A stretch of DNA of 64,000 nt, taken from the NCBI GenBank assembly GCA_035546775.1, contig DASZWD010000020.1, positions 1 to 64,000 on the forward strand, in the 5' to 3' direction. Every line of letters starts with the position of its first letter. Position 1 is the stretch's first letter. Of this stretch, positions 16,980 to 29,273 are shown in pieces. The position numbers and the translations under genes are program-made. Source of the stretch: Acidimicrobiales bacterium. GTDB taxonomy: Bacteria > Actinomycetota > Acidimicrobiia > Acidimicrobiales > JACCXE01. Below the pieces are notes generated by a model. It did not search any database, had not been told where the DNA came from, and saw only the letters and a program-made list of their open reading frames with translations.

Positions 16980-18161
16980 ATGCGAACGACGCGTGTGTTG
17001 CCGATTGCCGTTGCTCTATTCGCCTGGCTGGCGCTGTCCGCGGTGGTGGCGCCTCGGGCGTCGGCCGACTCGGTGCTCTACGACCAGTTTCCCGTCGACC
17101 CCGCAGGCAACGCGGCGATCTCGGTCGACAGCCCCACCGACGCTTTCGACTCTGAAGGTGCCGCCGACTTCGTCGTGCCGAGCGGTCAGACCTGGAACCT
17201 GTCGCGCGTGGTCGCGGCGCAATTCGACAGCACCACCGCGGGCGTCGACACGATCCGCGTACGGATCTATACCGACGCCGCCGGCACGCCGGGTAGCGTG
17301 CTGTTCGACCAGACCGACGCCAGCACCGGCACCGGGACGCCGCAGGGGACCGAGACAATCACGCTGAACCCCGTGATCGCGTTGTCGGCGGGCACCTACT
17401 GGTTGTCGCTCCAGGCGATCGCGACCCAACCCTCCTGGTACTGGGGCTCGGCGGACATCACCGCCGGCAGCCTCGGGATGTGGCGCAACCCACCTGACGG
17501 GTTCGGCACCGGGTGCACCAACTTCAGCGCGACGTCGGGTTGCCTCAGCGTGGGCGACAATTCCCTGCGCGACTACGAGTTCCAACTCGTGGGGACGGCG
17601 GGCACGGGTGCGTTGTGCGACGGGCTGACGCCGACGATCACCGGGAGCGGCACGATCAACGGGACGTCGGGCGCCGACGTGATCTTGGGATCGAGCGGTC
17701 CGGATGACATCAGTGGTGGTGGTGGTGCTGACACGATCTGCGCGGGCGACGGTGACGACGTCGTCCACGGTGGTGGTGGTGCGGACCGGATCGACGGCGG
17801 CGCGGGCAAGGATCAGGTGTTCGGTCAGGCGGGTGACGACGTGATCTCGGGTGGCGGCGACAACGACACGTTGAAGGGTCAGGACGGCGCGGATCAGATC
17901 GCGGGGGGTCAGGGCAACGACAAGATTGCCGGGGGCACGGGTGACGACTTCTTGTCGGGCGGCGACGGCAACGACCACCTCTTCGGCAACGACGGTACCG
18001 ACTCGGCCAACGGCAGCGCCGGCAACGACACGATGATCGGGGGCGCGGGCGACGACGACCTGCACGGCAACGCCGGTGATGACTCGCTCGACGGCGGGAG
18101 CGGGAGCGACACCTGCAAGGGCGGCGGCGGGACCGACACGCTTTCGGAGTGCGACAACTAG
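16980..18161 (+). CDS. Secreted RTX calcium-binding repeat protein
   Basis: A 393-residue exported protein. A Sec signal peptide ends near APRASA (about residue 30). Residues about 31-210 form a beta-rich domain with no family recognised (VRIYTDAAGTPGSVLFDQ resembles carbohydrate-binding or pre-RTX modules). From about residue 228 there are tandem GGxGxDxux repeats that coil into a calcium-loaded parallel beta-roll. It ends with DTLSECDN, the Cys-containing end common in actinobacterial RTX proteins. RTX proteins of proteobacteria use type I secretion; this one carries a Sec signal instead. It sits between ispG and proS, where no such gene is expected. Confidence 0.85.
   Translation: MRTTRVLPIAVALFAWLALSAVVAPRASADSVLYDQFPVDPAGNAAISVDSPTDAFDSEGAADFVVPSGQTWNLSRVVAAQFDSTTAGVDTIRVRIYTDAAGTPGSVLFDQTDASTGTGTPQGTETITLNPVIALSAGTYWLSLQAIATQPSWYWGSADITAGSLGMWRNPPDGFGTGCTNFSATSGCLSVGDNSLRDYEFQLVGTAGTGALCDGLTPTITGSGTINGTSGADVILGSSGPDDISGGGGADTICAGDGDDVVHGGGGADRIDGGAGKDQVFGQAGDDVISGGGDNDTLKGQDGADQIAGGQGNDKIAGGTGDDFLSGGDGNDHLFGNDGTDSANGSAGNDTMIGGAGDDDLHGNAGDDSLDGGSGSDTCKGGGGTDTLSECDN
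17662..18143 (+). repeat. RTX nonapeptide repeat tract (coding)
   Basis: About 16-17 tandem copies of the glycine-aspartate nonapeptide (GGxGNDxL-like) lie inside the secreted protein. The DNA is repetitive because the protein is; the codons vary between copies, so this is an old repeat rather than a recent expansion. Confidence 0.8.
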
Positions 18162-19628: not shown

Positions 19629-21761
19629 ATGCGGCAGGCGCGCACGTTTCTCATGGTCATCCTCGCGGTGACCTCGGTTCTGGTCGCGATCGGCGCCGAC
19701 ACGCCCAAAGCCGCCGCCGACAGCTGCAGCGACTGCGGCGAGAGCGACACTGACCTGCTCTTCATCTACAACAACAGCAACGTAACGTCGGCTCCCTACG
19801 GCCAGCCCGTCATCCTCGACGCGATCGTGAGCGACGTCAGCGGATCGTGCGACATCGGCGACTGCAATACGCCGTCGGGCAAGGTGTACTTCTTCGACAA
19901 CGGCGACACGGGTTACTTCGCGCTCGCGCCCGCCGATCCCGATGACTACACGCCTGACGACTCGACGGATACGAACGCCGGTTTCGAAGCGACAGTGGCC
20001 AACCTGGCGGTCGGTACGCACTCGATCCGCGCCCTGTACCAGAGCCCGATCGAAAGCCTCGAGAATCCGCATCACTTCGACAACAGCGAGGACACGAAGT
20101 CGCTCGAGATCACGCAGGCGAGCAGTTCGATCTCTGGATCCGTGAGCGCCAGCTCGTCGGCCTACGGCAGCGGACTCCTCTTCGGCGCCCACGTCGCCCC
20201 GAACCCGGCGGTCGACCCGTCAGCGTCGCTGCCGACGGGCAACGTCGAACTCGTCGACGTCACCGGCGGCGGAAACACCACCCTCCAGACCAAGGCCATC
20301 AACGCGTCCGGCGACGTGTCCTTCACCGAGTCGAGCCTCAGCGTCGGCGTGCACAAGATCGTCATGGTCTACGACGGCGACACGAACTACAACGCCCACT
20401 CGACGGACCAGTTCACCCAGACCGTGACGCAGGCCAACACGACGACCGGCGTCGCCGTCACGCCGAATCCCTCCACGTACAACACCTCGGTAACGATGAC
20501 CGCCACCGTGTCGCCCACCAACGCGACCGGCAGCGTGACCTTCACCGTCGACGGCGCCTCGACGTTCACCGCGACCGTCAGCGGCGGCACCGCGACGGCG
20601 ATGCACGCCGGCTTCGGTGCGGGCCCCCACTCGATCTCGGCCGCGTACTCCGGCGACACCAACTACGTCGGCAGCACGGGCACGAGCAGCTTCACCGTCG
20701 ACAAGGCCGGCACCATGACGGGCCTCTCTTCGTCGCCGAACCCCTCGGTCTTCGGGCAACCCGTCACGATCACTGGCACCGTGTCGCCGTCGACGGCACC
20801 CGGGTCGGTGCTGTTCTCCGACGGCGCCTCGTCGCTCGGCTCCGGCACGCTGAGCAGCGGCACGGCCAGCGTGACGACGAGCGCGCTGTCTGTCGGCTCG
20901 CACACGCTCAACGGGCACTATGCCGGCGACGACAATTACGAGTCGAGTGACGCGTCACCGATCACGCAGGTGGTCAACAAGGCGGACACCACCACCGTGC
21001 TCACCGGTCCTGCGCACGCCGTCGACTTCGGCGGTAACGCCAAGCTCACGGTGGCGGTGGGCGCGGTGGCACCCGGAGCGGGCACGCCGAGCGGAACCGT
21101 CACGCTGCGGGAGGGACCGGCAGTGCTCGGTACCTCATCGCTCCACAGCGGCGCCGGCGCCTTCACCGTGGCCAACCTGCTGCCCGGAAGTCACTCGATG
21201 ATCGCCACCTACAGCGGCGATGGGAACTTCAACGGGAGCACTTCGTCGCCCGTCGTTGTGAGCGTCACCTGCAAGACGAACAAGACCAGCCCGAGCGGCA
21301 GCTTCACCGCCGGTAGCGGTTCGACGTGCGTCACCGGCGACGTCAACGGGTCGATCAACCTCTCTTCGGGGGCGCGGCTGTTCATTTCCCACGCCACCGT
21401 GACCGGCGACATCGTCGGGTCCAGCGCGTCGCAACTGGCGCTGTGCGGCGTGACGATGCGCGGCAACCTGAACCTGGCGAACACCAAGGGCCCGATCGTG
21501 ATCGGCGACGCCGTCAACAACCGCTGCGCCGGCAACACGATCAGCGGCATCGTGAGCATCATGAGCACCGCCAAGGGCCTCATCGTCGGCGACAACACGC
21601 TGGCGAAGGACCTCAACCTCAACAGCAACCACAAGGGCACGGCGGTGGAGAACAACCTGATCACGGGCCAGTTGTCGTGCAGCAGCAACCAGCCGAAACC
21701 GACGAACAACGGCCGCCCGAATCACGCCGGTGCCCGCTATGGGCAGTGCGTGACTCTCTAA
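19629..21761 (+). CDS. Secreted Ig-like repeat protein with C-terminal beta-helix-like domain
   Basis: A 710-residue exported protein. The signal peptide ends near DTPKAAADS, followed by CSDCGESD, then about five tandem bacterial Ig-like modules of 85-95 residues. Each has the G.V.F.dg...lg...l..G.a......l..G.Hsi.a.Y.GD.ny..S pattern (Big_5/Ig-like 3 type). The C-terminal 160 residues (SGSTCVTGDVNGSINLSSGA...) look like short stacked beta-strands with four cysteines. No LPxTG or membrane anchor is present, so it is released or held non-covalently. The stop overlaps the convergent giant surface-protein gene by 4 nt. Adhesion or matrix role is inference. Confidence 0.82.
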   Translation: MRQARTFLMVILAVTSVLVAIGADTPKAAADSCSDCGESDTDLLFIYNNSNVTSAPYGQPVILDAIVSDVSGSCDIGDCNTPSGKVYFFDNGDTGYFALAPADPDDYTPDDSTDTNAGFEATVANLAVGTHSIRALYQSPIESLENPHHFDNSEDTKSLEITQASSSISGSVSASSSAYGSGLLFGAHVAPNPAVDPSASLPTGNVELVDVTGGGNTTLQTKAINASGDVSFTESSLSVGVHKIVMVYDGDTNYNAHSTDQFTQTVTQANTTTGVAVTPNPSTYNTSVTMTATVSPTNATGSVTFTVDGASTFTATVSGGTATAMHAGFGAGPHSISAAYSGDTNYVGSTGTSSFTVDKAGTMTGLSSSPNPSVFGQPVTITGTVSPSTAPGSVLFSDGASSLGSGTLSSGTASVTTSALSVGSHTLNGHYAGDDNYESSDASPITQVVNKADTTTVLTGPAHAVDFGGNAKLTVAVGAVAPGAGTPSGTVTLREGPAVLGTSSLHSGAGAFTVANLLPGSHSMIATYSGDGNFNGSTSSPVVVSVTCKTNKTSPSGSFTAGSGSTCVTGDVNGSINLSSGARLFISHATVTGDIVGSSASQLALCGVTMRGNLNLANTKGPIVIGDAVNNRCAGNTISGIVSIMSTAKGLIVGDNTLAKDLNLNSNHKGTAVENNLITGQLSCSSNQPKPTNNGRPNHAGARYGQCVTL

Positions 21762-24700
21762 GGCGCGTCGAGTTGCTTCTGGGTGGTGATCGTCGTCGTC
21801 GGTGACGTGTTGCCGGCGGCGTCCGCCTGCGACACCTTGGTCGTCAGTGTGCCGCGGTTGATCTTCGACACGTCGAGCTTCGTGTCGTACGTGCTCGCCA
21901 CACACTTCTGCGTCCGAACCTGATTCTGCTGGCGGTTCGACCCGCTGACCTCGACAGTCACCTTGGCGTCGGTCTCGCACGTGCCGCGTACGTGAATCGC
22001 CTGCGCCTGGGCCAGGGTCCGGATCGGATCGGGGGTGAACGCCGCCGAGGGGGCGGTGGGCACGACCGTGTCCTTCTTGAGTGCGAACTCGGTGAAGCCC
22101 ATCACCGCGCCCGACTTGTTCTTCTCCGTGGCGCGGAACAGGACCTTGGCGCCATCCTTGAAGCCCGATGCGTCTGCCGTGGTGCGCAGGAACCCACTGG
22201 CTGCGGGACAAGCAAACGCAGGACCGTTGTTGGCGGCGTTCGGCTTCTTGCTGTCGTAAAGCGTGATGCTCACGTCGGTTCCGGTGCTGCACGAGACGGC
22301 CAGCGGGATTTGCGTCTGGTTCGCCGCGTTGATGGCGTCCGCACCCGGCGAGACGAAACGATGGGTGCTCTTGGTCGTGGTGACGACGCGGTCCGGGCCC
22401 GCCGTTCCCGACGCGTCGAGGAAGTGCGCGGAGACGGTGATAGTGCCGGGGACGAGCGTGCGCAGGTCGAAGCTGCGGTCGTAGCCCCCAGTGTTGGGGC
22501 AGGCGAAGAGTTGCGGCACCGCGTTGGTCGCCGGATCGTCGTCGTTGACGGCTAGCGACACCTGGTATGGCGCCACGCAGGTTCCTGCGATGTGCACGGC
22601 CGAGTCCGTCCCGTCGCTCGGGATCGTCGTCGGGTTGATTGTGGGCGCGTCCGGCTGCGGAATGCTCGCCGTCGCCTTCGTCGCCGTGTCCTTCTCAACC
22701 ACGCCGGTGTTGCCAGCGGGGTCGACCTGGCGGGCCTTCAGTTCGACTCTCTCGTCGTTGAACGCCGAGGCGTTGAACGTGCCGGAGAACGTGCCGTCGT
22801 CGCCGCACACGATGTAGGCGACGGACTTCGAGTGCTGGTGCTGATCGACCGCCTTGATCGCGGTGATGGTGTTGCCCGCCACGCACGTGCCCGTGAACGG
22901 AACCGTCGCCTGATTCGCCGGCGTGATGACGCTCGGTGTGATGTCGATCGAGCCCTCCGCGTCGGTCGGCGCGACAGTGTCCTTCAAGGGGCGGTTCGGA
23001 TCGGTCGCCGGAGTTCCGCGGTTGCCGGCGGCGTCGAACTCGACGGCGGCGATGGTGATGAGGTCGCCCTCGGCCATGTCGCGGGCGTCGAAGGAGAGGT
23101 GGAAGCTGTTCGACGCGCACGTGAAGGAAACGAAGCTCTCGTGGCCGTGAGCGTCTCCAATGGCCACGTTGACGGGGTTGCCCGTCGTGCACGTGCCGAT
23201 GTAGGGCACGGCGGCCTGGTTCGAGGCGGCGTTGATGTAAGCCGGGACGATGTTCACCGTCGTGCCTGTGGGCCCGAGGGTGTCCTTGATCGCCGTGTCG
23301 GTGTCGGGGGAGTGGGCGACGTTGGCCGCGTCGGTCTGTACCGCGGCGGCCGTGATCGTCGCGTCGTCGGACAACGTGGACGCGTCGAACGTCGCCGAGT
23401 AGGCACCCCCGACGCAGGTGAACTGGGGCACTGTCACGGTGTGGTCGTGGAGGTCGGACACGGTGATGTCGACCCTGTTCCCGGTGACGCAGGTACCCGT
23501 GTACGGGACCGCGGCCTGGTTGGCGGCGTTGATGTATGCCGGCGTGATGTCGATGCTGCCCTCCGCGTCCGGCGGTGTCGTGGTCTTCTGCGCGGTGTCG
23601 GCCCCCGGAGTGCTGGTGTTGCCAGCGCCATCGGTCTGCGTAACCGCCGCAGCGATCGTGCCGTCGGCGAGCGCCGACGCGTCGATGGTGATGCTGTACC
23701 CGCCGGCTACGCAGGTCTGCGAACCCGTCACGTCGTTCGTCGCCGAGGATGCATCCACGACGAGAAGAGACACGGTGTCGCCCGTCTCGCAGGTGCCGTC
23801 GATCGACACCGCGGTCGCGTTGTCAGCGGTGACGGGATCGGTCGTGATCGTGACGGTGGGCGCGCCGGGCACGACGGCGTCCTTGCTGGTGGTGTCCGTT
23901 CCAGCCGGGCCGGTGTTACCCGCGGTGTCGGTCTGGGTGACCGACGCGGTGATCGTGCCGTCGTCCAGCGATTGCAGGTCCAGCGTGAACGACGCGAGGC
24001 CGCCGCCGGGGCACGTCATGGACGCCGTGACGTCATTGGTGCTCGCGTTCGTGTCCGCCGCGGTGAGGTTCAGGGTCGCGCCCGACTCGCAACTGGCGGT
24101 CACGCCAACGGCGCTGGCGTTGCCTGCGTTGATTGGTGCGGTCGTGATCGTGACGGTCGACGCCGCCGGTCCGGCCACGTCGCCGAAGGTGAGGTCGACG
24201 AAGGTTGCGCCGTACACGGGTTTCCAGCCGCGTCCGTCGGCGAAGGGAGTCTGGGTCACGGTGGCGAACGTGCCCGTGACCGACGAGCCCGTCGCGATCC
24301 GAATGGTCGTGCCCACTGCCGGTTCGACGTCGGGCTGTGCCGCGATGTCGAGCGTTCCGCCGATTGCGATCGTCGACGTCGAACTCAGTTGGTCGAAGTC
24401 GGACGTGGTATCCCAGATGTGCTCGACCCACGATCCCGCGCTCGCGCCGGTCTGGTCGAAGGGCGCGGACTGTGCGAGGCGTTGGGCGCCCGTGCCGGGT
24501 TCGAAGTGGCCGTGGTTCACTATCGGCATCACGGAGCTGCGATGCGCGGGACCGGTGACGACGATGAACCTTCCGTTGTTGGTGAGGGTGAAGTTGGTGT
24601 TCAGCAGGGCGTCGTAAATGCCCGACGACCGCAGCGCCAACTCACCGTTGTTGGTGAACGGCGCGGTCGCGTTCAGCTTTGCCGGATCGCCGTTGTTGCC

Positions 24701-26179
24701 TTCGATCGTAAGCACTTCGAGCGGGTCGATGTCCCCGGTGAAGGTGAGGTTGTAGTGCGAAGTGAACAGCCCGGAGCCGACGAGACCGGGCGTCATCGTG
24801 AGCGTGGCATTCTCGAGCAGGACCGGGTTGCTGCCGGTCACCGAGCCTGCGCCCTGCACGAAGGTGCCGGCCCCGCTGACCAGAGTCTGCCCACTGGTGA
24901 ACTGGCGGATCTCGCCTGAAGCGTTGTTCAGCGTGTCGCCGACATGGACGGTGAGCGTGGCGCCGTCGCGCACAAAGATCTGACCGCTCGCTCCCGTGTT
25001 GGTGATCGTGTGGCCCGTGAAGTCGGTCTGCGCGGAGCGGGCGATGTCCAGGCGGCCGGGGTTGACGATGTCGGCGGCGAGTTGCAGGTTGCCCGTGCCG
25101 CCGCCGACGGACTCGCTGCCGACGCCGGTCACCGAACCGGTGGTGATGATCGAACCGAAGCCCGAGCCGTAGTCGGCGTTGGTGATCTTGGCTCCGTTGA
25201 TCGTGCGCAGCCGGGCGTCGTAGATGTTTTCGGCGACCAAGTCGATCGTGCCGTTGTTAACCAGGTCGGCTCCGATGGTGAGGTTCGCCGGGTTGCCGTT
25301 GTTCGCCGCGAGCACGACCACGTCGTCGGGACGGAGGTCGCCCGACAGGTTCACGTCGTAGCGGGCCAGCACGTCGGTCTTGGTGCGCGTGCCGCCGCCG
25401 ACGAATTGCAGGTTGCCGGCGTTGAGTTCGATGGGGAAGCGCGTGAAGGTGCGATCGGTCTCGCCGCCTTGCTTGAGCGTGCCGCCGTTGATGACGAAGT
25501 GGAGCTTGTCGTGCACGCGGATGAGGCCGTCGCTGTTGTCGAACGTGTCCGGGGCAAACATCGTGAAGGTCGCACCGCTGGCGACGTCGAACACGCCGGT
25601 TGCTGTGTTCGTGATCGTGCGGCCCAGGCCTTCCGTCCTTGCATCGCGCGCGATTGAAATGGTGCCGGAGTTCTTGATGTTGGCGTTCAGGTTCTCCGCG
25701 CTCGAACTGGACGGGGCGGGTGACGCCGTGATGGTGCCCGTGTTGGTCAACACTGCGGCGGTCGCAGTCTTCAGCGTGGCGCCGTAGATGCCATCGGGGA
25801 GCAGGCGAATCAGGCCCGCGCTCGACGAGTCGGCGTTGAGCGTCAGCGTCGTGGGATTGAAGGTGCCCGGTCGGATGTCGAGCACGGCACTCGGATTCGA
25901 GATGTCGAGCGCGTTGACGAAGTAGTCACCGGAGGGGATCGTCACGATCACCGCGGCGGGGATGCACGCGTTCGTCACCCCCGTCGGCACGCCGTTGTTC
26001 CAATTCCCGGCGTCGGTCCAGATGCCGTTGGCCGTCGATGTCCAGGTCGTGTCGCACGGGATGGAAGCGTCGGCCGAGCTGTGGGTGGTCCACCACCCCG
26101 CCAACGCCAACCCGGCGACGAGCGCCGCCCGAACGAATGCGCGCCGCGCGAAAGGATGAATTGACCTTTGCCCCGTCAT
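21758..26179 (-). CDS. Giant secreted protein: beta-helix-like half plus eight Cys-paired Ig-like repeats
   Basis: A 1473-residue exported protein starting at ATG 26179 (MTGQRSIHPFARRAFVRAAL, then a hydrophobic signal segment ending near SSADAS). The frame is open upstream to 26953, but that part is antisense of the FHA gene. Residues about 35-670 show stacked beta-strand units (LTIGADLVNNGTIDLVAENIYDA; LTNNGRF), typical of pectin-lyase-like or filamentous adhesin folds. Residues about 670-1473 are eight repeats of about 100 residues, each with one Cys in a GTC-like strand and a second Cys about 25-35 residues later, probably a disulfide. No sortase, RTX or membrane anchor is seen. It is divergent from the FHA-HTH/kinase pair. 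A surface adhesin is the likeliest role. Confidence 0.82.
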   Translation of the reverse strand: MTGQRSIHPFARRAFVRAALVAGLALAGWWTTHSSADASIPCDTTWTSTANGIWTDAGNWNNGVPTGVTNACIPAAVIVTIPSGDYFVNALDISNPSAVLDIRPGTFNPTTLTLNADSSSAGLIRLLPDGIYGATLKTATAAVLTNTGTITASPAPSSSSAENLNANIKNSGTISIARDARTEGLGRTITNTATGVFDVASGATFTMFAPDTFDNSDGLIRVHDKLHFVINGGTLKQGGETDRTFTRFPIELNAGNLQFVGGGTRTKTDVLARYDVNLSGDLRPDDVVVLAANNGNPANLTIGADLVNNGTIDLVAENIYDARLRTINGAKITNADYGSGFGSIITTGSVTGVGSESVGGGTGNLQLAADIVNPGRLDIARSAQTDFTGHTITNTGASGQIFVRDGATLTVHVGDTLNNASGEIRQFTSGQTLVSGAGTFVQGAGSVTGSNPVLLENATLTMTPGLVGSGLFTSHYNLTFTGDIDPLEVLTIEGNNGDPAKLNATAPFTNNGELALRSSGIYDALLNTNFTLTNNGRFIVVTGPAHRSSVMPIVNHGHFEPGTGAQRLAQSAPFDQTGASAGSWVEHIWDTTSDFDQLSSTSTIAIGGTLDIAAQPDVEPAVGTTIRIATGSSVTGTFATVTQTPFADGRGWKPVYGATFVDLTFGDVAGPAASTVTITTAPINAGNASAVGVTASCESGATLNLTAADTNASTNDVTASMTCPGGGLASFTLDLQSLDDGTITASVTQTDTAGNTGPAGTDTTSKDAVVPGAPTVTITTDPVTADNATAVSIDGTCETGDTVSLLVVDASSATNDVTGSQTCVAGGYSITIDASALADGTIAAAVTQTDGAGNTSTPGADTAQKTTTPPDAEGSIDITPAYINAANQAAVPYTGTCVTGNRVDITVSDLHDHTVTVPQFTCVGGAYSATFDASTLSDDATITAAAVQTDAANVAHSPDTDTAIKDTLGPTGTTVNIVPAYINAASNQAAVPYIGTCTTGNPVNVAIGDAHGHESFVSFTCASNSFHLSFDARDMAEGDLITIAAVEFDAAGNRGTPATDPNRPLKDTVAPTDAEGSIDITPSVITPANQATVPFTGTCVAGNTITAIKAVDQHQHSKSVAYIVCGDDGTFSGTFNASAFNDERVELKARQVDPAGNTGVVEKDTATKATASIPQPDAPTINPTTIPSDGTDSAVHIAGTCVAPYQVSLAVNDDDPATNAVPQLFACPNTGGYDRSFDLRTLVPGTITVSAHFLDASGTAGPDRVVTTTKSTHRFVSPGADAINAANQTQIPLAVSCSTGTDVSITLYDSKKPNAANNGPAFACPAASGFLRTTADASGFKDGAKVLFRATEKNKSGAVMGFTEFALKKDTVVPTAPSAAFTPDPIRTLAQAQAIHVRGTCETDAKVTVEVSGSNRQQNQVRTQKCVASTYDTKLDVSKINRGTLTTKVSQADAAGNTSPTTTITTQKQLDAP
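21761..24177 (-). repeat. Eight tandem about 300-bp coding repeats (Cys-paired Ig-like domains)
   Basis: Eight consecutive units of about 300 bp encode V-x-I-x-P-x-x-I/V-x-x-x-N-x-x-x-V-x-x-x-G-x-C modules, each ending AxQxDxAGN followed by a TKDxx linker. Divergence between units is high, so they are ancient duplications. They are similar in kind to the C-terminal modules of the sulfatase at 46.8-49.5 kb. Confidence 0.7.
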
Positions 26180-26214
26180 GCATTCGAGGGTAGGGAGCGG
26201 AAGTGTCGGGAGTC

Positions 26215-26242
26215 TGTCCCCTAAACGGGACATTGCTGTCCC
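26215..26242. promoter_or_regulatory. Operator-like TGTCCC/GGGACA cluster between giant protein gene and FHA-HTH gene
   Basis: TGTCCC-N6-GGGACA-N4-TGTCCC lies in the 69-bp gap between two divergent start codons. The first two boxes form a perfect inverted repeat; the third is a direct copy ending 6 nt before the FHA ATG, where a -10 box would fall if the mRNA is leaderless. A dimeric regulator bound here could control both genes. The FHA-HTH protein itself is the obvious candidate. Confidence 0.5.
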
Positions 26243-26248
26243 ATTACG

Positions 26249-26851
26249 ATGCATCTCGTGCCAACCTACATCGAGGCCTGGCAGCCCTCGGGGCCGGAGC
26301 GTGCGTCGCTTGACGGCGAGCGACTGTCGATCGGCAAGAGCCCGGCGAACGATCTCGTCGTGCGCGATGCCACGGCGTCGCGGTTGCACGCCGTCATCGA
26401 GCGCCTCGGCCCAGGCTGGGTGATCCGCGACCTCGGCAGCCGCAACGGCACCTTCGTAAACGGCGAGCGCATCGTGGCCGATCGCGCCCTGCGCGGTGGG
26501 GATGAGATCCGCGTGGGCGCGGCGCGGCTGATCCTGCGCACCGACAATGTGGCGGTCGGCGAGTCGTCCACCGCCGTGGTGAATCCCGCGCCCAACCTCA
26601 CCGCACGCGAGCGCGAGGTGCTGCGCGCCTTGTGCCGCCCGCTCCTCGCCGGCGACCTCCTTACTGCACCGGCGCCGGCGCGGGTCGTGGCCGACGAGTT
26701 GTTCCTGTCCGAAGAGGCGGTGAAGAAGCACTTGCAGCGGCTGTACGTGAAGTTCGGCATTGAAGGCGGATCGCCGGCCGAGCGGCGCACCCGGCTGGCA
26801 AACGAGGCGTTCCGGCGCGGCGCCGTCGGCATGGGGGATCTCGACCGTTGA
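26249..26851 (+). CDS. FHA domain-HTH transcriptional regulator
   Basis: A 200-residue protein with an N-terminal FHA domain (about residues 20-95; IGKSPANDLVV, ASRLHAVIE and DLGSRNGTFVNG are the phosphothreonine-pocket signatures). A C-terminal LuxR/GerE-like helix-turn-helix follows (about 112-180): LTAREREVLRALC, then VADELFLSEEAVKKHLQRLYVKFGI. The combination predicts a DNA-binding protein whose activity depends on recognising a phosphothreonine. The kinase gene directly downstream starts inside its stop codon (TTGA), so both are made together. No Shine-Dalgarno site precedes ATG 26249; GTG 26258 is an alternative start. Confidence 0.86.
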   Translation: MHLVPTYIEAWQPSGPERASLDGERLSIGKSPANDLVVRDATASRLHAVIERLGPGWVIRDLGSRNGTFVNGERIVADRALRGGDEIRVGAARLILRTDNVAVGESSTAVVNPAPNLTAREREVLRALCRPLLAGDLLTAPAPARVVADELFLSEEAVKKHLQRLYVKFGIEGGSPAERRTRLANEAFRRGAVGMGDLDR

Positions 26852-29190
26852 GCTTGGTGGCGGGCCGGTACGCGCTTCTCGAACAACTCGGTGCCGGTGG
26901 ACAGGGAACGGTCTTTCGCGCCGACGACACGCACACCGGTGAAGCGGTGGCACTCAAGCGACTCGACGGTCCGAGCGTCGCGCCCGTCGTGCCGCCGCAT
27001 CCCGGCGTCGTTGCTCGGCGCGGCGACGCGGTGCACGACGGTGCTTCATGGGCGGTCATGGACTGGATCGACGGCCGCAGTGCCGCGACGGACCTACGTG
27101 CGAACGGCCCATTGTTGGCCGACGAGGTTCTGCGCCTGCTCGCGGCGGTCGCCGACGCGCTCGAGCATCTGCACGCTCACGGTGTCGTTCACGGTGACGT
27201 GAAGCCGGCGAACATCGTCGTGCGCCGCGACGGCGCGCCCGTGCTCGTCGACCTCACGGCGCCGCGGCCTGGCCACGGCACCGACGGCTACCGCGCGCCG
27301 GAGGTCGCCGCGGGCGCCCTGCCGGGCGCTTCCGCCGACACCTATGGTCTCGCGGCGACCGCCGTCGCGCTGCTGACCGGCGACCCGCCGGCGGGCGCCG
27401 GCGCCGCGCTGAACTCGATCTCTCCCGTGTGGCGGCGCGGTCTCGCGACGGATCCGGCTCGGCGGCCGCGACCCACCGAACTCGTGGCCGCCGTCGCGGA
27501 AAGCACACCGTCCAACCTGCCCCCACCGCTGACGGACGGCGACCGGCCCGACGAATTGGCGCGCCTGTTGGAGCTGCTCGCAGCGCACCGGTTGGTGTCG
27601 GTGACGGGACTGGCGGGCGTTGGCAAGGCGCGGCTCGTCGTAGAGGCCGGTAACCATCTGCGGCATCGCTACCCCGGCGGAGTGTGGCGCGTGCGCGTCG
27701 ATGACGGACTGGTCCCCGCGTCGGTACGCGCGCTCTCCATGCCGGCGACGGCGGCGCTGGAGGACATAGCAGTGCGCCTCGGTGCTCTGCCCACGCTGTT
27801 CATCGTCGACGGCGCTGCGACGGCGGCGGAGGTCGACGAACTGCTGGCGGCGTGTAAAGGCATCGCGATGGTGCGCGCTGGCAAGGAGCCGCTGGGAATT
27901 GTGAACGAGGCCGTCGTTCCTTTGGTGCCCCGAGGCGAGGTTGTCCGCTTCGCGCTCTCCAAGGACGACCGGGCCGCGCTCGTGCGTTTGTCGACGTTCC
28001 GTGCGCCGTTCGACTCCGCCTTGGCCTGCGAGTTGGCATGCGTCGACGGTCCGCAGCTCTCCGATTTCGTGGCGCGCGGGCTGATCGAGGCGCTGGCGTC
28101 GGACACGTTCAGTGTCGCGTTCGAAGTCGGAGACGAAGACCTTGCGGTGCTGGCGGCCCTTCGCGCCTGGACGGCGAGGCGACTCGGGCACGGTGACATC
28201 CGGGCGTTCGAGCAAGCCCGTCCGCTGGTGGGTCGCGCCGTCGTGACGGGTGACGACGAATGGCTCGCCGAAGTGATCGCTGGATACGCCGACGAGGGGG
28301 TCTGCCGCGGTTTCGGAACGGAGGTTTACGCGGTACTCGACGCCGTTCGTGCCGCGCCCGGGACGTTCCCGCAGGCGTTCCGGCCTGCGTGTTTCGCCGA
28401 GGTGAGCAACCGCCACCTTCATCTCGAGGACATCACGGAGTGGGCGGCCCGCACCGGCGACGACGGAATTGCGGCGATCTGTGCGCTGCGCCATCTGGCG
28501 CGCCTCGACGACGACGAGTACACCGCGACGGAACTGCGCGGCCTGATCGCGACGTTTGTGGAAGTCGGCGACGAGTACACCGAAGCAGTGGCATGGGCTG
28601 ACCTCGGCATCACGCTCGCCGGCCGGGGCGACACGGAAGGAGGCGTCGCCGCGTTGCGCCGATCGGCCCATCTCGCGCAGGCTGCGCCCAACCCCTGGAC
28701 AGCGGGTATGGCGCACAACGCGCTGTCGACGCTCGTCGGCGTCGACCTGCGAGCGCCGGCGGCCGCGGCCGAGCACGCGCGCGAAGCGCTGGCGTGGTTC
28801 GAGCGCGCCGGCCATGCGATGCGCGTCTCCCAGGCGCGGGCCAACCTTGCGCTGTACACGTTTGACCTGGGTGCGCACGACGAAGCTCTTGACATCGCCG
28901 AGCGCGCCCTCGTCGACGCCGCCGCTTTAGGCGCACCCAGGTACGTCGTGGTCCCGCTGACGGTGATCGCCCTTGCCCATGCGAGCACGGATCCGGAGCG
29001 GACGCTGATGCTCATCGCCGCCGCGGACAACCTCGACCCTGGTCTCGGGACACGTCCACCCGACCGGGAACGTCTTGGTGCGGCGCGCATCGCTGCTCGC
29101 GCTGCGCTGGGTTCGGCGGCGGACGAAGTCGAGGCGCGGGGCGCGGCGCTCGATCTGCCGGCAGCGGTAGAGATAGCCCTTGCGCCCTAA
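26848..29190 (+). CDS. Ser/Thr protein kinase-ATPase-TPR multidomain protein
   Basis: A 780-residue protein. A Hanks-type kinase (about residues 1-220) has the Gly loop GAGGQG (15-20), Lys37, HGD-V-K-P-A-N (115-122) in place of HRDxKPxN, Asp135 in VDLT in place of DFG, and YRAPE. Only about 13 residues separate Lys37 from HPGVV, so the C-helix with its conserved Glu seems missing. A STAND/AAA-like ATPase follows; its Walker A reads GLAGVGKA (254-261), with Ala instead of Ser/Thr. The C-terminal 300 residues are helical TPR-like. TTG 26848 overlaps the FHA stop; TTG 26854 or GTG 26857 are alternatives. No membrane segment, unlike PknB. Probable partner of the FHA-HTH protein. Confidence 0.84.
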   Translation: MSLVAGRYALLEQLGAGGQGTVFRADDTHTGEAVALKRLDGPSVAPVVPPHPGVVARRGDAVHDGASWAVMDWIDGRSAATDLRANGPLLADEVLRLLAAVADALEHLHAHGVVHGDVKPANIVVRRDGAPVLVDLTAPRPGHGTDGYRAPEVAAGALPGASADTYGLAATAVALLTGDPPAGAGAALNSISPVWRRGLATDPARRPRPTELVAAVAESTPSNLPPPLTDGDRPDELARLLELLAAHRLVSVTGLAGVGKARLVVEAGNHLRHRYPGGVWRVRVDDGLVPASVRALSMPATAALEDIAVRLGALPTLFIVDGAATAAEVDELLAACKGIAMVRAGKEPLGIVNEAVVPLVPRGEVVRFALSKDDRAALVRLSTFRAPFDSALACELACVDGPQLSDFVARGLIEALASDTFSVAFEVGDEDLAVLAALRAWTARRLGHGDIRAFEQARPLVGRAVVTGDDEWLAEVIAGYADEGVCRGFGTEVYAVLDAVRAAPGTFPQAFRPACFAEVSNRHLHLEDITEWAARTGDDGIAAICALRHLARLDDDEYTATELRGLIATFVEVGDEYTEAVAWADLGITLAGRGDTEGGVAALRRSAHLAQAAPNPWTAGMAHNALSTLVGVDLRAPAAAAEHAREALAWFERAGHAMRVSQARANLALYTFDLGAHDEALDIAERALVDAAALGAPRYVVVPLTVIALAHASTDPERTLMLIAAADNLDPGLGTRPPDRERLGAARIAARAALGSAADEVEARGAALDLPAAVEIALAP

Positions 29191-29237: not shown

Positions 29238-29273
29238 GAGCGTGGACTCCTTTGGGGTCCACGCTCTTTTATT
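29238..29273 (+). terminator. Intrinsic terminator/attenuator in the rimP-nusA leader
   Basis: A 13-bp stem (29238-29250 with 29254-29266, one T-G wobble) closes on a TTT loop and is followed by TTTTATT, a textbook intrinsic terminator. It lies downstream of the TATAAT box and 20 nt before the rimP ATG, so it would terminate the operon's own leader as well as read-through from the kinase gene. A second inverted repeat (TCGAACG 29203-29209 / CGTTCGA 29223-29229) lies just upstream. NusA-dependent termination in the leader of the nusA operon is known in Bacillus; the same logic here is inference. Confidence 0.8.

Follow-up and report, generated by a model that had tools for sequence, protein, structure and literature searches.

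A kinase-linked FHA-HTH regulator divergent from a giant exported-protein gene in an Acidimicrobiales genome

The window, as the whole stretch of DNA analysed is called here, comprises 64,000 nucleotides of contig C20 from the 3.75-Mb draft genome (97.5% complete) of an Acidimicrobiales bacterium. Along the locus lie, in order, a gene for a 1473-aa exported protein on the minus strand (21758-26179), a gap of 69 bp, and on the plus strand a gene for an FHA-HTH regulator (26249-26851) followed by one for a 780-aa kinase-like/STAND-like protein with helical (TPR-like) repeats (26848-29190). All three open reading frames described in an earlier sequence-only reading of this DNA were recovered in an ORF check, and the divergent starts are separated by exactly 69 bp (26180-26248), as it had claimed. 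The FHA-HTH frame has 200 codons from ATG 26249. Since homologues in the family alignment begin at the residue matching Val4 of this ORF (GTG 26258), with a TACGAT motif 7 nt upstream, GTG 26258 is more likely to be the true start; depending on the start, the divergent genes share 69-78 bp. The stop of the FHA-HTH gene had also been said to overlap the start of the kinase gene. Its TGA (26849-26851) does overlap the TTG start at 26848, but the kinase gene could also start at GTG 26857 and the overlap is therefore not certain.

The FHA-HTH protein matches FHA (7.5e-19) and GerE (2.2e-06) in Pfam, which bears out its earlier identification. It is composed of an FHA domain (about residues 18-98), a disordered linker containing Thr108 (99-115) and a LuxR/GerE-type HTH (about 117-189). 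The AlphaFold (AF2) model has a pLDDT of 89, with residues 103-108 of the linker disordered. With the FHA fold, Foldseek ranks the FHA domains of GarA, OdhI and EmbR first, and the HTH gives profile matches to ChrA, VpsT, GerE, VraR and DosR. FHA domains that read phosphothreonine have conserved GR, SxxH and NG motifs (PMC1262709). In the window copy SRLH and NG are present and GR is GK, the phosphate-binding Arg being replaced by Lys30. A 31-member alignment shows the same layout throughout, namely FHA, variable linker, then HTH. Within it, FHA residues Ser44, Arg45, His47, Asn66, Gly67 and Thr68 show little or no variation. In 12 of 30 sequences, among them all four members linked to a kinase-STAND gene, the GR motif has Lys, Ala, Ser or Leu in place of its Arg (G114 and G239 have Ala or Ser). 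Linker Thr108 is aligned in 27 of the 31 sequences and the remaining four carry a Thr at most two residues away; the adjoining columns (109-114) reach at most 16/31, the linker being otherwise variable and of low confidence in the model. Thr108 may thus be inferred as the best candidate for a switch residue and the likeliest phospho-acceptor.

The 780-aa protein matches Pkinase (2.3e-19) and, below its cut-off, AAA_16 (5.7e-04), and its best Foldseek match is PknB. In its AF2 model the kinase and NTPase domains are predicted with high confidence and an alpha-helical array occupies about residues 580-730, in keeping with the TPR-like repeats reported for this region. Hanks-type Ser/Thr kinases are marked by the beta3 Lys, alphaC Glu, HRD Asp, Asn and DFG Asp. 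Compared with its nearest relatives, the kinase domain retains the beta3 Lys, the catalytic Asp of HGD (a form common to these relatives), the Asn and the metal-binding Asp (in DLT). It has lost the alphaC helix and its Glu, DFG has become DLT and the activation segment is much shortened; in the model no helix occurs between beta3 (33-39) and beta4 (57-63), a region of high confidence. The P-loop ATPase assigned to it stands in so far as a Walker A-like GLAGVGKAR is present, but the Ser/Thr of Walker A is lost. Measured against the STAND motifs (Walker A GK[ST], an hhhD-type Walker B and the downstream motifs), the protein falls outside the family definition, with GKA for GK[ST], VDGA for LDNCEH and AGK for TSR; FVGR, LDNCEH and TSR are all kept by relatives and lost here. 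With motifs in the kinase, STAND and FHA regions thus partly degenerate, homology is not enough to presume kinase output, and on its motifs this kinase partner is unusual and perhaps weakly active. The same genome has six other Pkinase matches.

The 1473-aa product, read from ATG 26179, carries a signal peptide in which RRAFVRA resembles a twin-arginine motif, and it has weak matches to bacterial Ig-like repeats (Big_13 / Ca_tandemer). It had been described as a surface protein, a location that stays putative, no sorting or anchor signal being visible at the C-terminus. No relatives were found in its own genome. Directly after proS, the gene for an exported protein of 710 aa that contains five Ig-like domains of the Big_3_5 type (19629-21761) is convergent with that of the 1473-aa protein, the two genes overlapping by about 4 bp. 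An exported protein with RTX repeats (16980-18161) sits between ispG and proS, genes that are directly adjacent in several relatives.

In relatives within the order, ispG-proS-rimP-nusA are contiguous, with rimP beginning shortly after the end of proS. In the window, about 9.7 kb separates proS from rimP, and this interval is taken up by the Big_3_5 protein, the 1473-aa protein and the FHA-HTH/kinase pair. An intrinsic-terminator-like hairpin with a 13-bp stem and T tail (29238-29266, plus strand) separates the pair from rimP-nusA-infB, although 2.0 sites of any quality are expected in shuffled sequence, so that the site count itself is not significant. The GC content of the pair (0.705-0.709, against 0.69 in the surroundings) is not informative as to a foreign origin. 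Nor is a role in anti-phage defence claimed, as PADLOC gave only generic kinase-domain matches (PD-T4-6, mad6) and no defence genes occur among the neighbours.

Between the divergent genes lies an operator-like array, TGTCCC-N6-GGGACA-N4-TGTCCC (26215-26242). The full array has no other match within three mismatches in the window (0.11 expected in shuffles). Its dyad core TGTCCC-N6-GGGACA occurs once in 3.7 Mb, where rough base composition predicts about 0.4 occurrences, so the uniqueness of the core alone proves little; the single copy does rule against the core being a dispersed repeat or mobile-element end. Conservation of the array was looked for upstream of FHA-HTH homologues and was not found. 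In actinobacteria, leaderless promoters carry a TANNNT motif 5-8 nt from the start codon. Putative -10 elements of this type are present for both genes, TACGAT (26245-26250, plus strand) 7 nt before GTG 26258 and TACCCT (26187-26192, minus strand) 7 nt before ATG 26179. Of the ATG/GTG triplets in the window, 0.7% are preceded by such a motif, compared with 6 of 16 homologue starts, the latter counted with the start codon free to shift by a few codons. The array lies between the two putative -10s. It covers the -35/spacer region of the putative FHA-HTH promoter and, relative to that of the exported protein, positions of about -36 to -63, a geometry which would fit autorepression of the FHA-HTH gene and activation of the exported-protein gene.

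Homologues of the FHA-HTH protein were sought in 298 genomes of the order, including its own, many of the comparison genomes being MAGs. Full or near-full loci numbered 17, in 15 of the 297 other genomes; one genome with contig-end fragments and two with the FHA only fall outside this count. Outside the order, homologues occur in Nocardia, Rhodococcus, Prescottella and Mycobacterium. The window protein, with its N-terminal FHA and C-terminal LuxR-type HTH, is a full-length member of what the alignment indicates is a real family of regulators, and no paper naming such a family was found in the open-access literature searched. Its tree does not resolve the kinase-STAND-linked members as a single clade.

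At 13 of the 17 FHA-HTH loci in the 15 genomes a kinase gene (Pfam Pkinase) is found no more than 5 kb away, against 0.30 expected (P about 3e-20, independence assumed). Counted by family, the linkage holds in six of seven, with P about 2e-7 even at tripled rates, phylogeny being only partially corrected for in these statistics. The four loci lacking a nearby kinase include contigs that end close by. A search of all 298 genomes with the kinase domain only gave G114, G239 and G145 as best non-self matches (3e-30, 2e-29 and 3e-24), and each of these kinases adjoins an FHA-HTH homologue. Together, the recurring linkage and the position of the best kinase matches make the assignment of a kinase-linked FHA-HTH regulator well supported.

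The arrangement of the linked genes, as called at homologue loci by a GC-based script, varies. Kinase and FHA-HTH genes are in tandem in the window and at L123, L133, L038 and L068, divergent at L121 and L114, on the same strand with a gap of about 0.58 kb at L118 and L120, and part of a vWA/PP2C/kinase cluster at L127, L130 and relatives. No kinase was found near the Nocardia and Rhodococcus members. The linked kinases include kinase-STAND proteins, kinase-cyclase-STAND-WD40 proteins, membrane kinases and the kinases of vWA/PP2C/kinase triads; this diversity suggests that what they share as an input is phosphorylation. The regulator is linked less to one kinase type than to Ser/Thr kinases as a class. 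At L121 (5873-10639) the kinase is a 1589-aa protein that combines nSTAND1 and WD40 domains with a cyclase-like stretch, and its gene is divergent from the FHA-HTH gene across about 60 bp. At L120 (2432-5125) a MalT-like LuxR STAND regulator is encoded directly downstream of the FHA-HTH gene, which itself follows a kinase-STAND gene. The FHA-HTH genes at L127 (1591-5718) and L130 (4.7-8.8 kb) stand beside PP2C, kinase and vWA genes in the manner of a TerY-P triad, and possibly represent dedicated transcription factors of such triads.

The exported protein does not share in this conservation. Among the 297 other genomes there is no relative of meaningful coverage, only a short Ig-repeat match in one, and a heuristic signal-peptide and length filter, applied to 37 FHA-HTH loci out to 8 kb or the contig end, detected no comparable exported gene. 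A conserved triad of regulator, kinase and exported protein was consequently rejected, and the self-contained three-gene module proposed earlier is not supported; for the triad as a general system, this is the outcome that the sequence-only reading had itself named as a refutation. From these surveys the triad thus appears lineage-specific or accidental. The array within the 69-bp region between two putative leaderless-type promoters makes control of the exported gene plausible, and it is possible, as a guess, that the pair controls it in this genome. The interpretation in the sequence-only reading is accordingly partly supported: the kinase-linked regulator is upheld and the triad is not.

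The FHA-HTH/kinase pairing being a conserved genomic association, phospho-control of the regulator, which had been put forward from the domains, is its best reading, though the partial degeneracy of the window kinase, STAND and FHA motifs had been overlooked. The account which we favour, by a little, is that of a kinase-linked FHA-LuxR transcription switch with linker Thr108, a self-binding FHA and the array as its target. It builds on what the sequences show, namely the domain content, a kinase linkage that recurs, the Thr conserved in the linker, and the array with the promoter-like motifs, and from these we infer a signal, a site of phosphorylation, binding to DNA and a target. The kinase-STAND-TPR protein would sense a signal, probably via its helical repeats, and would control the adjacent regulator by phosphorylation or by phosphate-dependent docking. 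Thr108, once phosphorylated, would dock onto an FHA domain, either in cis or on a second subunit, by analogy with GarA/OdhI and EmbR. This contact would be the simplest mechanism and could alter how the LuxR-type HTH dimerises and binds DNA. The array is probably the regulator's binding site, through which it would act on its own operon and perhaps on the divergent exported gene.

Counted against this switch are the loss of alphaC and its Glu, the DLT, the very short activation segment, the Walker A without Ser/Thr, the loss of the FHA Arg, the kinase-free homologues of Nocardia and Rhodococcus and the lack of conservation of the array. The lesions in the 780-aa protein, together with the missing helix between beta3 and beta4, the FVGR, LDNCEH and TSR motifs that only relatives keep and the six other Pkinase matches in the genome, would suit a catalytically dead or nearly dead protein acting as a docking or anti-activator scaffold for the FHA-HTH regulator, with phosphorylation supplied by another kinase of the genome or not needed at all. 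This is a doubtful alternative, as the retained beta3 Lys, HGD Asp, Asn and DLT Asp mean that the protein is no pseudokinase by the usual three-motif rule, and HGD is common to its nearest relatives. Less probable again is an FHA domain which does not bind phosphate and serves in dimerisation or docking only, the regulator responding to binding of its STAND/TPR partner. Substitution of the GR Arg in 12 of 30 sequences, including every kinase-STAND-linked member, speaks for it, but the other FHA residues listed above are almost unchanged and Arg to Lys is a conservative replacement.

That the pair and the exported protein have no regulatory link, and became neighbours only through insertion of both into the proS-rimP interval, is judged to have nearly even chances. 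The uninterrupted proS-rimP order in relatives, as against the 9.7 kb here, and the lack both of an exported giant near other pairs and of any real homologue in the order are in line with such insertion; against it, the two genes are divergent across a mere 69-78 bp, with the dyad array between both promoter-like motifs.

For most bacterial Ser/Thr kinases no dedicated transcription factor is known. A small FHA-LuxR protein recurring beside several kinase architectures would thus resemble a response regulator in offering an output that is portable, and the conserved linker Thr makes the proposed switch directly testable. In the broadest form of the idea, FHA-LuxR proteins would be a general Ser/Thr kinase output with a self-binding linker Thr, and here a near-pseudokinase sensor would control a giant exported protein. 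We regard this as a long shot; if true, FHA-LuxR would be a one-protein phosphothreonine analogue of response regulators, serving kinase-STAND proteins, membrane kinases and TerY-P triads.

Among known systems, EmbR/PknH of Mycobacterium tuberculosis likewise pairs an FHA-bearing transcription factor with a Ser/Thr kinase and is a proven precedent (PMC4601284), and the EmbR FHA is among the closest solved folds. EmbR, however, has an OmpR-type DNA-binding domain (wHTH), BTAD and a C-terminal FHA, whereas the window protein shows FHA and GerE only, with the FHA N-terminal to a LuxR/GerE-type HTH. PknH is a transmembrane kinase, unlike the soluble kinase-STAND-TPR protein of the window. By analogy the pair looks like an uncharacterised cousin that works like EmbR/PknH and lies outside that family; in EmbR/PknH itself, the EmbR FHA domain is needed for interaction with PknH and phosphorylation raises DNA binding (PMC4601284). 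In the same species PknK, a soluble Ser/Thr kinase that carries a STAND region at its C-terminus, phosphorylates the transcription factor VirS (PMC4601284). The combination of a soluble kinase bearing a STAND region with a transcription factor is shared, but VirS is of the AraC type without FHA, and the window kinase and STAND motifs are degenerate.

GarA and OdhI provide the closest fold to the window FHA, and in both a phosphothreonine outside the FHA can be bound by the protein's own FHA as an internal switch. Their phospho-site is N-terminal to the FHA and they have no HTH, whereas the candidate Thr here lies between FHA and HTH; the principle of the internal switch by FHA-bound phosphothreonine is described in PMC4601284. 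TerY-P triads consist of vWA, PP2C and Ser/Thr kinase genes (PMC11090510). Several FHA-HTH homologues (L127, L130 and others) lie in such clusters, but the three adjacent genes do not occur in the window, where neither vWA nor PP2C adjoins the pair and its neighbours are the exported protein and rimP. Finally, the AfsK/AfsR pathway also unites Ser/Thr kinase, STAND NTPase, TPR and DNA-binding domains. Its DNA-binding protein bears the NTPase and TPR, whereas in the window these are part of the kinase protein and it is an FHA domain that the DNA-binding protein carries.
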